A stretch of DNA of 57,218 nucleotides from Bacteroidota bacterium (lineage in GTDB: Bacteria; Bacteroidota; Bacteroidia; B-17B0; Aurantibacillaceae): contig OMJH01000035.1 of assembly GCA_900299295.1 (NCBI GenBank), forward strand, positions 1 to 57,218, written 5' to 3'. The notes under the pieces are model-generated. The model worked only from the letters and a program-made list of their open reading frames with translations. It ran no database searches and was not told the DNA's origin. Shown piece by piece: positions 39,835 through 47,502 of this stretch. A program made the translations under genes and the position numbers. Position 1 is the stretch's first letter; each line of letters begins with the position of its first letter.

Positions 39835-40314
39835 CTAATTCATTTCAGTTAAATTTTCAATTTTAAGTTGTTCCCTGAATTCCATCCATATTTTTCCCAT
39901 TGTATTGGTTCCTATCCATCCATTGTTTGTGTTTCTTTTACCCCAAAATAAATGATTCGGCGCATTTCGTTTCCCGATATCTTCAACGATTTCATTATCA
40001 CCTGTAGCCAAAAGTCTTCTTTTCAAATCAGGGTGTTGTTCCAATTTTAGTTTAACACATAACTTCATGTTTTCAATATCCTCCGCAGATCTCAGTTCGA
40101 TAGCGTAAGAATTTTTATGTTTTTTTGATTTCATTTTGGCACCCATCGGACTTTTTTCGTTTCGAATTATTTCTTTTATTGTTTCGTCGTTAAATCGCAT
40201 CGCCTGAAACAACGCTTCGGCAGTTCTCCAGATTTTATTTTCATAATTTATTGAATGAGCTGACATATTGGATAACCAGCCATTTTCTTCGTTTACTTTA
40301 TTATATGTTATCAT
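39835..40314 (-). CDS. NADAR-domain protein (YbiA-like N-glycosidase family)
   Basis: A 159-residue protein. It has NGWLSNMSAHSINYENKIWR, then TAEALFQAMRF, KSPMGAKMKSKK, and the C-terminal FWGKRNTNNGWIGTNTMGKI, the hallmarks of the NADAR family. Members cleave N-glycosidic bonds: some act on riboflavin-pathway intermediates, and some remove ADP-ribose from guanine in DNA as antidotes to DarT-type toxins. No DarT or other ADP-ribosyltransferase is recognisable here. It follows a Lys-rich unknown gene by 51 bases on the same strand. The pair is AT-rich compared with its neighbours, suggesting horizontal arrival (inference). Confidence 0.87.
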   Translation of the reverse strand: MITYNKVNEENGWLSNMSAHSINYENKIWRTAEALFQAMRFNDETIKEIIRNEKSPMGAKMKSKKHKNSYAIELRSAEDIENMKLCVKLKLEQHPDLKRRLLATGDNEIVEDIGKRNAPNHLFWGKRNTNNGWIGTNTMGKIWMEFREQLKIENLTEMN

Positions 40315-40365
40315 ATTTTTTATTTTTTTGATTAAATTATTTGTTTTTGTTTTCCCTGGTTAAAG

Positions 40366-40755
40366 TTACAAGCTTGTCAAATAAATCATTTTTATTGTCT
40401 TAAACATTTCATTTCTCAAGGGCTCATAAATCCAATCTTGCAGATTTAATTTTGTAACCTGATCCAAAATGCTCTTTTTACTTACATGTTTAATTTCTTC
40501 CCGAAGATTGTATTCAGGAAAAAAAACACCGATTACTTTTTTTTCGTTTTCATTGTATCCAAAAAAAATAACACCCTGTTTTTCATCGGGTAGTTTCTTT
40601 ATTACTTCATTAAAACTTTTTTTGATTTTCGTTTCGCTTATTTCATACGTTGTCTTGATTTTTTTCAATCCATTTTTTTCTGTTTCCGTTGTTTTTTTTT
40701 CTTTTTCTAATTTGAACTCAAATTGATTTCCTTTCATTTCTTTCATTGTTTTCAT
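40366..40755 (-). CDS. Unrecognised Lys/Glu-rich protein upstream of NADAR gene
   Basis: I do not recognise this 129-residue protein. Residues 1-45 are highly charged (repeated K, E, T) and probably flexible or helical. The rest looks folded, with alternating segments: KKLPDEKQGVIFFGYNENEK, VIGVFFPEYNLREEI, and LNLQDWIYEPLRNEMFKTIK. There is no signal peptide, membrane segment or cysteine. It ends 51 bases ahead of the NADAR gene on the same strand, so the two may act together. By hand count one 60-base line (40441-40500) has 16 G/C, against 26 in 41161-41220. It could be a DNA-associated or toxin-like partner, but nothing in the sequence proves it. It is a real gene candidate rather than a shadow, because the opposite frame is only low-complexity. 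Confidence 0.6.
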   Translation of the reverse strand: MKTMKEMKGNQFEFKLEKEKKTTETEKNGLKKIKTTYEISETKIKKSFNEVIKKLPDEKQGVIFFGYNENEKKVIGVFFPEYNLREEIKHVSKKSILDQVTKLNLQDWIYEPLRNEMFKTIKMIYLTSL

Positions 40756-41121
40756 AATTGTTTTTTTTAGTTAATTGTTGGTTACTTTTTTTATTCACAC
40801 ACTTGCCTTGTCTGCTTTTAAATTTTCACCCTTTCGTTAGATTAATTTTCATTTCGAAAACGGGTTTTTCAACCTCCACGTTTAAATACGTGTAATCGCT
40901 TTGAGAAAGAACGCGGTTCTGACGTACGACATGCAGTATCCGTGTCGGGCTTTGACTAATTTCCCCTGTACAGAGGGAAAAATAAATTCACCCCCGCTCA
41001 CGGATACTATTTATTTAAATGTTGGAAATTGAATTGGAGGCAGAAATACGCTATCCTTAGGTAAAGGTTACAATTTTTCCGGAAAAAATCTAATCTAAAT
41101 CGCCAAAAAACGGAAATTGAC
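40756..41121. other. 366-base intergenic region holding a palindromic element
   Basis: No coding frame is visible. From about 40873 to 41040 it contains several inverted repeats (described as a separate repeat entry). The remaining parts (40756-40872 and 41041-41121) are AT-rich with no motif I recognise. The AsmA-like gene ends at 41122 and the Lys-rich gene starts at 40755, both on the minus strand. Confidence 0.7.
40873..41040. repeat. Palindromic element with a 74-base hairpin and outer CCTCCA/TGGAGG repeats
   Basis: Seen directly: AGTATCCGTG (40935-40944) is the exact reverse complement of CACGGATACT (40999-41008). Inside, CGGG (40946-40949) can pair with CCCG (40993-40996), and TTTCCC (40960-40965) with GGGAAA (40975-40980). 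Upstream are AGAAC-GCG-GTTCT (40908-40920) and CACGT-ttaaat-ACGTG (40877-40892). CGACA (40927-40931) can pair with TGTCG (40943-40947) and would compete with the long stem. CCTCCA (40873-40878) and TGGAGG (41035-41040) bracket the whole. It could be a small structured RNA, a REP/MITE-like element or a leader of the Lys-rich gene. No transposase is in the window. Confidence 0.7.
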
Positions 41122-43908
41122 TTATTTTAACTTATCTGCTTTTTCCTGCGCCTCCTGTAAAACCTTGTCGGCTTTTGCGTTTGCTTCCTCCGTAATTTTT
41201 TGACACTTCTGGTCAGTTTCCTTTCGTAGTTTTTCAGCCAGTTTTTTGTTCGCAATTTTTTCAATAGGGTTTGATCCTGATTTTTCTAGCTGATCCGCTT
41301 TATCATAGCCTTCTTTTTTCACTTGCGCAGAAAGCGTAGCGGCCTCCGATTTTATGCGTTCAGCCTGAGTCCGCGCTTCGCTGAGAATTTTTTCCGCTTC
41401 TTTTGCGGCTTCTTCTTTTCCTTTGTTGATTAACTCCTCTTTCTTTTCCTCAACGATTTCCTTGAGTTCTTCTTTGACTTCATTTTTTACGTCCTTCATC
41501 GCGTCTTTCATTCCTGTCTTAATCACCGGCTTGGTAACGGTTCCGCCAATTAAAGCGGTAACATCAATTTTTTCGGGAAGTTTGATTTCTTTTCCTGCAC
41601 TTGAAGAAGCTTTACTGAGCCAGCCTTCTACAAGCGAAGTAGCCTGAGTCGGTAAATCCTTGGTTGGAATTTTTAAATTCCAATTGTAATCAATCGTTTG
41701 GTCATAACCCGTAGAACCTGAAATTTCAGCGTCAATGTTTTTTATTTTTGTTTTGAACGGATCAACAATAACTCTTCCGTCTTTCACATTGAAAAATGCA
41801 GCGATATTCTGAAGATCCAGCTTTTTCAAACTTTCATTTTTTAAATTCTCCGCCAGTTTCACAACGGGTTCAAATCCTTCAACGCGCACAGATTTTGTAC
41901 GTAAACTTCCGTTGGCGGTAAGTGTGTTCAGATCCGGCATCATTTCTTCAGTCAGTGTTCCATTCAGGTTTTCCAGGGTGGTAGAGAATTTTCCGAACGC
42001 ATATTTTCCAATGGGTGCAAGTTTTTGAACGGTATTGAAAGCCGCAAAAGTTTTTTGAATATCAAGTTCGTTGATTTCAAGATTGTATTGGATGAGTGGT
42101 TTTTTCTGATTTTTTGTATCGTAAAAGCCGTTCATGGTAACAGAGCCGTCCAATAGATTCATTTTCAGTTTTTCCATTGTAATACGTTCGTTTTTTATGT
42201 GTATTAAACCATTTACTCCGCTGATGTCCAGGTTATCATATTTTATTTTGCCAATGGAAGAATTCAAGGTGAAGTCAATGTTTGCAGGGACAGGTATCAC
42301 TGACAAAGGCACAGTGTCAGCGGAAGCTGAAACGGTATCGGTTGTTTCCGGACCCATTAACTCATCAATGTCCATCATTTTTGAATTCATGGTAAAATTT
42401 CCTTTCAGCAGAGAGTCTTTAAATACGTATTGCATAAAATCTTCAATTTTTCCATTTGCAGTGATGTCACTTTTACCGATCTGCGATTCGAATGAATTCA
42501 ATTCAACAAACTTCGGCGTGAAGGTGAGCAGTAGTTTACGGATATCGATTGGGTAAGTCACAGATTTCGTTCTGTACTTCATGTCGGTGATTTGAAATGT
42601 TCCTGAAGCTTTAAATTCATCGTATTTTTCATTTTCTATCATCGACATCCTCCCGTTCAGTGAAATATCAGATGTAATTATTCCGTTCAGTTCTTCGTCC
42701 TTCTCCAGCGGAATAAATTCCTTTACACTTCCAAGATTGATTTGACCTTTCAGGTTTCCGTCTAAAGCCGGATCAGAAATGGGCGTGTTAACCCGTAAAC
42801 TCATGTCAATAGGATTTCCTCCCATTTCAGCATGAAAACGTTCAAGATTTATTTTTAAATGATCAAGATTAGCGTCCGGGCTGTTTACATCCAAGAGTAC
42901 CTGAATATTGTTTACGGACTTAGGCAAATCAGGATATTTGAACATTCCGTCAGCCACTTCGAGATGGCACCCGAAAGCGGGGAGAAGTGAATCATTGTAA
43001 ATTCCTTTCGCGAATCCGTTCAGTGCCAGTTTACCTTTGGTTTGAATTTTACTGATGCTTCCTGAATACACGACGGGAATTAACGATAGAATAGATTTGA
43101 ATTCCGTATTCGGGCAGGAAAATTTCAGGTCCATTTCAATATCATCAGTCGGCATCGCTACGTAACCTGTAGCTGCAAGTGATAACTCATTTAATTTCAT
43201 TTCATTTTCCTGGAAGGTGAATTTAAATTGCGGCATGTTCATGTTCATTTTCACTTTCACAGAGCTCTTAACGTTAGCCATGTAATGAACACCTCCATAA
43301 AAAAGATTATATTTTTCTATGGTAGCTTCAATATCCATGATAAAATTGTCCTGCGTAAAATCTCCTGCTAGTTTGAAATTTAATTGATCAAGTTTTGTAT
43401 CTAAACTCATACTCTCGTCGTTGTAGCGGATTCTTCCGTTACTGATATCGAATGATTTCAGGCTAAGATTGAATTTGGAAGCGGATGTGTCGGTGGCAAT
43501 TGTATCTGCTGATGGCTTTGTGATGTCCCAATTTGCTTTTCCATCTTTTAAAACATGTGCATAAATCGCAGGATCAACAAGAGAAATACGATTGATTTTA
43601 TATTTTTCTCCTTTGATTACGCTCATGAGGTCAAGATTTAGTTCGGTTTTTCCAATGAAAGCCAATGTGTCTTTTTCAAAATCATTGATTCCCGAAATGC
43701 AGAGGTTGCTAATGCTTAATTTAAAATCAGGAAAGCTGCTGATGAACGAAACGTCAATTTCACCAAAGTTCAGTCGGGCGTTTAGCTGTTTGTTGGCCTC
43801 CGCCTTGGAAAATTCGATAATCTTGTTTTTAAACAGAAATGAAATGGAGACAATAATTATGATTAATATCCCGAATACGATTGCGGTCCATTTCAAAACT
43901 TTTTTCAT
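41122..43908 (-). CDS. AsmA-family protein with C-terminal coiled coil
   Basis: A 928-residue protein with one N-terminal membrane helix (about 4-27) and a long periplasmic AsmA-type beta-rich region. Repeating beta segments and the N-terminal INRISLVDPAIYAHVLKDGK followed by ANWDI are typical of AsmA/YhdP lipid-transfer proteins that bridge the envelope. From about 800 it turns into a 120-residue Ala/Glu/Lys helix-forming tail with EAAKEAEKILSEARTQAERI and similar heptads, a likely coiled coil. It lies 39 bases downstream of the Asp-box T9SS protein on the same strand. The role in lipid traffic is inferred from the family. Confidence 0.82.
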   Translation of the reverse strand: MKKVLKWTAIVFGILIIIIVSISFLFKNKIIEFSKAEANKQLNARLNFGEIDVSFISSFPDFKLSISNLCISGINDFEKDTLAFIGKTELNLDLMSVIKGEKYKINRISLVDPAIYAHVLKDGKANWDITKPSADTIATDTSASKFNLSLKSFDISNGRIRYNDESMSLDTKLDQLNFKLAGDFTQDNFIMDIEATIEKYNLFYGGVHYMANVKSSVKVKMNMNMPQFKFTFQENEMKLNELSLAATGYVAMPTDDIEMDLKFSCPNTEFKSILSLIPVVYSGSISKIQTKGKLALNGFAKGIYNDSLLPAFGCHLEVADGMFKYPDLPKSVNNIQVLLDVNSPDANLDHLKINLERFHAEMGGNPIDMSLRVNTPISDPALDGNLKGQINLGSVKEFIPLEKDEELNGIITSDISLNGRMSMIENEKYDEFKASGTFQITDMKYRTKSVTYPIDIRKLLLTFTPKFVELNSFESQIGKSDITANGKIEDFMQYVFKDSLLKGNFTMNSKMMDIDELMGPETTDTVSASADTVPLSVIPVPANIDFTLNSSIGKIKYDNLDISGVNGLIHIKNERITMEKLKMNLLDGSVTMNGFYDTKNQKKPLIQYNLEINELDIQKTFAAFNTVQKLAPIGKYAFGKFSTTLENLNGTLTEEMMPDLNTLTANGSLRTKSVRVEGFEPVVKLAENLKNESLKKLDLQNIAAFFNVKDGRVIVDPFKTKIKNIDAEISGSTGYDQTIDYNWNLKIPTKDLPTQATSLVEGWLSKASSSAGKEIKLPEKIDVTALIGGTVTKPVIKTGMKDAMKDVKNEVKEELKEIVEEKKEELINKGKEEAAKEAEKILSEARTQAERIKSEAATLSAQVKKEGYDKADQLEKSGSNPIEKIANKKLAEKLRKETDQKCQKITEEANAKADKVLQEAQEKADKLK

Positions 43909-47030: not shown

Positions 47031-47366
47031 ATGGCAAAAAAAGCAACAAAAAAAGCTGCCAAGAAAGCTCCTAAGAAAGCTACAAAGAAGGCAGCAAAGA
47101 AATCTGGAAAGAAACGTGTACCAAATCCAGCATTTATGAAACCTCTTCAACCCAGCGCAGCATTAGCTGAAGTAGTTGGTAACAAGGCGATGCCTCGTAC
47201 TGAAGTGGTGAAAAAAATGTGGCAGTACATTAAGAAGAATGGTCTGCAAGATAAGAAGGTAAAAATTATGATTAACGCTGACGCAAAATTGAAACCAATT
47301 TTCGGCGGTAAAGGTCAAGTTTCAATGTTTGAAATGGCTAAGCACATTTCCAAGCAATTGAAATAA
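47031..47366 (+). CDS. SWIB/MDM2-domain protein with histone H1-like tail
   Basis: A 111-residue protein. Residues 1-30 are an Ala/Lys tail (repeats of KKAAKKAPKKATKK type) like the C-termini of histone H1 and of bacterial H1-like proteins. Residues 35-110 are a SWIB domain: FMKPLQPSAALAEVVGNKAM, PRTEVVKKMWQYIKKNGLQD and ADAKLKPIFGGKGQVSMFEM. It is likely a small DNA-binding or nucleoid protein; comparable SWIB-H1 fusions are known in Chlamydia and Bacteroidota. It is monocistronic with a strong terminator and an unusually structured upstream region. Confidence 0.9.
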   Translation: MAKKATKKAAKKAPKKATKKAAKKSGKKRVPNPAFMKPLQPSAALAEVVGNKAMPRTEVVKKMWQYIKKNGLQDKKVKIMINADAKLKPIFGGKGQVSMFEMAKHISKQLK

Positions 47367-47383: not shown

Positions 47384-47421
47384 AAACCCCGCTCGGTACT
47401 TCCTGCGGGGTTTTCTTTTTT
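47384..47421 (+). terminator. Rho-independent terminator of the SWIB-H1 gene
   Basis: AAACCCCGC and GCGGGGTTT form a 9-bp perfect stem around a 12-base loop, followed by TCTTTTTTAT. Confidence 0.92.
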
Positions 47422-47502
47422 ATAGTAGTGCGTATTTAAATAATTGCATCATCACAGCTTTTTAGTTTCTTTGTAGCGCCTTTGATTCTGGTTTTATACC
47501 TA

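Follow-up and report, generated by a model that had tools for sequence, protein, structure and literature searches.

Strain-specific sRNAs occur commonly in the Bacteroidota. In Bacteroides thetaiotaomicron, 27 of the 49 intergenic sRNAs called with high confidence are of this kind (PMC7366714), and in Flavobacterium psychrophilum 85 new independent RNAs with a median length of 176 bp have been mapped (PMC9723704). The element that we describe here, 167 nt at positions 40868-41034 of a 57-kb window (the whole stretch of DNA analysed, 57,218 nucleotides, which is 1 of 230 contigs in a 2.8-Mb genome), resembles the strain-specific RNAs in being ~170 nt long, intergenic, strongly folded and unconserved outside its strain. 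The RNAs mapped in those two species have been seen as transcripts, whereas the element is a candidate read from sequence and lacks a clear promoter or terminator. The genome is of Bacteroidia type, its phylum being inferred from a Por_Secre_tail domain and from the agreement of sister families with the Bacteroidetes 6S-Flavo model.

Three other kinds of system share some of its features. MITEs and REPs are likewise intergenic nested palindromes of which both strands fold, and in REPs of the GTAG type a palindrome of 20-40 bp has a GTAG tag next to it (PMC3733652); unlike these, the element is single, with no GTAG tag, no target-site duplication seen and no related element found in its genome. 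The Bacteroidales are known to have invertible promoters, and in the published examples at resistance genes an invertase gene lies immediately upstream (PMC8748976). The element has in common with such invertons a perfect inverted repeat with arms 54 bp apart, but no consensus promoter lies inside it and no invertase gene was seen adjoining it. The 6S-Flavo RNA (RF01685) is of similar length and also has a long closing stem, but it is a rod that has a central bubble and no branches, whereas the element forms a three-way junction and matches 6S-Flavo neither in sequence nor by model. No Rfam family, riboswitches included, matched above its gathering score (the best scored 17.5 bits where 75.9 were required), and a riboswitch or other known RNA was rejected for that reason. 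The attC boxes RYYYAAC / GTTRRRY and the GTAG tag are absent from both strands of the element, and an attC site and a GTAG-type REP were rejected on these grounds.

Anatomy and setting of the element

The whole element lies within a 366-bp gap (40756-41121) bounded by two minus-strand ORFs, and it spans no ORF of at least 60 aa in the ORF list, which bears out the statement of an earlier note on this DNA that no gene explains it. Its G+C content is 41%, compared with 28% and 36% in the flanks and a window mean of 39%. The upstream gene (41122-43908, minus strand) encodes a 928-aa AsmA/YhdP-like protein that has homologues across the whole class and matches DUF748 and YhdP below the curated cut-off. 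Downstream is an orphan ORF, orf129 (40366-40755, minus strand; 129 aa, 27% G+C), followed by a gene for a 159-aa NADAR-domain protein (39835-40314, minus strand; PF08719, 76.7 bits).

Every repeat listed in the earlier note was found in its place, among them the perfect 10-bp repeat AGTATCCGTG (40935-40944) / CACGGATACT (40999-41008), the arms of which, 54 bases apart, close a 74-nt hairpin (40935-41008) with a pairing probability of 0.99 on both strands. Within this hairpin are the stems CGGG/CCCG, TGA/TCA and TTTCCC/GGGAAA, and the 5' part of the element contains CACGT/ACGTG and a hairpin at ~40894-40918. The strongest outer pairing, which the earlier note did not have, joins 40868-40888 (TTCAACCTCCACGTTTAAATA on the plus strand) to 41012-41033 (TATTTAAATGTTGGAAATTGAA on the plus strand) over ~20 bp, with 11 + 1 + 8 pairs and a mean pairing probability of 0.84-0.91 on the minus strand. 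This stem closes a three-way junction whose branches are the 74-nt hairpin and a second, weaker hairpin at 40895-40930 that does not pair in the same way on the two strands. On the minus strand the outer stem begins with 11 unbroken pairs, two of them G-U, and at those two positions the plus strand has A-C mismatches.

Within the outer stem, CCTCCA (40873-40878) has two candidate partners. The minus strand prefers 41023-41028 (probability 0.91), and the plus strand prefers TGGAGG at 41035-41040 (0.93, as against 0.02 on the minus strand); in the predicted folds, this choice of partner is the only real pairing competition found. The switch suggested earlier, in which CGACA (40927-40931) would pair with TGTCG (40943-40947) in place of the long stem, is not supported: forcing it costs 10.5 kcal/mol on the plus strand and 9.3 kcal/mol on the minus strand, and its pairing probability is ~1e-6 or less compared with 0.99 for the long stem.

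Copies, relatives and the stability of the fold

Both blastn and a covariance model recovered one copy in the element's own genome, the model finding only the query itself; the next blastn match there is 24 nt long and lies within sequence lacking the palindrome. Covariance-model and blastn searches of 86 other genomes of the family found no relative, although a model derived from a single sequence, as this one was, may let distant relatives escape. Nor did the model find one in ~390 genomes of the class, where filters were stricter and fewer candidates were scored per genome, so that weak relatives may escape. Phages and plasmids gave no match by blastn with 11-base words. An exact-pattern scan of the GTDB r220 genomes did not find the 10-bp stem pattern. 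In IMG/VR the pattern has a single match, in coding-looking sequence, and three further 17-18-mers of the element led to two isolated short matches; all three sites were rejected as relatives since they have no other similarity to the element. The only blastn match in relatives was likewise set aside, as it aligns with 40801-40847, outside the element, in protein-coding-looking sequence. In 29 relatives, the sequence that follows the asmA homologue shows no such element by inspection or by model and blastn searches. This absence is weak evidence on age because, among genomes of the genus, even the closest one available has an AsmA protein only 52% identical.

The single copy and the lack of matches elsewhere tell against the REP or MITE that the earlier note had considered, and an element that occurs once with no conservation found is the outcome that note had set against its own proposal. 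A relic or orphan copy of MITE-like palindromic mobile DNA, arriving together with the low-G+C orf129-NADAR genes and folding by DNA symmetry rather than for any RNA function, is nevertheless the most serious rival explanation, if an unlikely one. The two strands fold near-equally, as a DNA palindrome should, and a wider imperfect inverted repeat, TTAGATTAATTTTCATTTCGAAAA (40837-40860) / TTTTCCGGAAAAAATCTAATCTAA (41075-41098), 71% matched, flanks the element. Gene order here is also unconserved: relatives have other genes after asmA, and in a same-genus genome pdxH-algH is kept and then followed by another ORF and trmD, with asmA beside another neighbour. Against a relic stand the single genomic copy with none in relatives, phages or plasmids, and the outer arms, which match no better than other chance pairs. 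The centres of the inner hairpin and outer stem do not coincide, no target-site duplication is visible by eye around 40837/41098, and the ends stay undefined without a second copy.

That the fold is a product of chance, the extreme among many stretches and noticed for being extreme, we consider a weaker explanation still, though one with some substance: nothing is conserved, and the element was picked for its palindromic look. Moreover, the 10-bp repeat AGTATCCGTG/CACGGATACT by itself is no more than chance would yield in 57 kb. The window contains 21 perfect 10-bp inverted repeats with loops of up to 100 nt, where shuffles give 15.7 +/- 5.7; of those with five or more G/C it contains 2, compared with 1.5. 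The fold as a whole is another matter. The folding energy of 40868-41034 is -53.5 kcal/mol on the minus strand and -51.5 kcal/mol on the plus strand (z -4.4 and -4.6), and dinucleotide shuffles were as stable in 1 of 2500 and 0 of 2500 cases, respectively. The element ranked first of 287 windows in a structure scan, and a composition-corrected scan of the window placed it at the head of 1269 stretches, with a z of -4.85 that is more extreme than that of the window's tRNA-Asn gene (-3.87) and those of all 2538 shuffled stretches, among which the extreme is -3.79. The second-ranked stretch, at 47251 (z -4.59), overlaps an intrinsic-terminator-like hairpin downstream of a SWIB-like ORF, which indicates that this measure of over-structure detects a recognisable RNA signal. 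The element is real, significantly structured, single and, in the genomes searched, not conserved.

Two further observations concern other parts of the window. The hairpin after the SWIB-like ORF (47031-47366), a strong AACCCCGC...GCGGGGTTTTCTTTTTT at 47390-47440 on the plus strand, is an ordinary one, and 811-1000 is also over-structured, with a long hairpin GTCAGATAGGAAA / TTTCTATCTGAT and a z of about -4.

An inverton, in which the 54 bp between the 10-bp repeats would flip and turn a promoter, is very improbable. In its favour, the inverted repeat is perfect and lies between genes in a member of the Bacteroidia; however, no TTTG/TAnnTTTG consensus promoter lies within, the gene upstream is asmA-like and not an invertase as in the described examples, and the outer closing stem would be left unexplained. 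A divergent 6S RNA of the window's family, which the similar length, the long closing stem and the presence of 6S-like RNAs in sister families with none convincing in this one might suggest, is the least credible, as RF01685 gives no match even at E up to 10, a model built from four sister-family sequences gives the element 1.1 bits with filters off, and the element is branched, its three-way junction having 2 nt on one side and no large central bubble.

The sister-family RNAs merit a separate remark. Eight 6S-like RNAs in eight genomes of these families fall well short of the 6S-Flavo cut-off in Rfam, and the four-sequence model finds more in three of the same genomes (E 3e-19 to 2e-6). Neither RF01685 nor this model gave a convincing match in the window's own family, whose 6S RNA may be divergent or missing.

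A candidate structured RNA and its neighbours

The explanation that we favour, tentatively, is a lineage-specific structured RNA, probably of the minus strand, acting either as a stand-alone sRNA or as an intercistronic leader between the asmA-like gene and orf129-NADAR. It is placed ahead of the palindrome relic and of chance because the fold exceeds that of a tRNA gene, there is no second copy, and only minus-strand RNA gives a continuous outer stem. The G-U pairs that keep the 11-bp run of the modelled outer stem unbroken mildly favour this strand; such continuity comes down to two pairs and is weak evidence, and the plus strand folds equally well (z -4.6). As no homologue was found, neither covariation nor conservation stands behind the structured RNA, which, with the earlier note's REP/MITE and switch unsupported, is the best reading left from that note's proposals, on grounds of thermodynamics and context only.

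As a stand-alone sRNA, the element would be ~170 nt long with its 5' end near 41035. A -7-box-like sequence, TATTTCTG (41041-41048, minus strand), matches TAnnTTTG at five of six positions in the arrangement ATTG-N22-TATTTCTG and ends 7 nt ahead of the stem on that strand, so that transcription from this box would start close to the outer stem's first base. This is suggestive only: the box is weak and at chance level, the best -33/-7-like pairs occur at several sites on both strands with equal score, and the gap 40756-41121 contains no perfect TAnnTTTG and, on either strand, no consensus promoter or intrinsic terminator. Alternatively, the element may be a folded intercistronic or leader segment that protects the low-G+C orf129-NADAR genes or uncouples them from asmA.

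Judged from gene order, the block formed by NADAR, orf129 and the element occupies a site where arrangement is not conserved. The low-G+C pair NADAR and orf129 (39835-40755) lies between algH and the asmA-like gene and is not conserved in relatives; the NADAR gene, at 33% G+C, is like orf129 below the window mean. The pair is possibly a small acquired cassette. orf129 belongs to no family and has no convincing homologue, its only matches in the phylum being very weak (E about 0.002-0.007); a single-sequence structure model of low confidence (pLDDT 65) matched nothing in the PDB at E < 0.3. Among the neighbours examined no gene was recognised as DarT, and orf129 matches no family; a link between the element and NADAR is therefore speculation. 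It is highly improbable that the element represents a new class of structured RNA travelling with the orphan 129-aa protein and the NADAR protein (of the ADP-ribosyl-guanine hydrolase type), where it might, for instance, serve a small defence or toxin-antitoxin-like cassette as its RNA regulator.

At present the element is a well-documented candidate without homologues. Strain-specific sRNAs of such size are usual in the Bacteroidota, so a structured RNA at this locus would be ordinary for the phylum. Were it transcribed, it would join a large and mostly uncharacterised set of strain-specific structured RNAs, and it would take on greater importance only if it regulates the orf129-NADAR pair.
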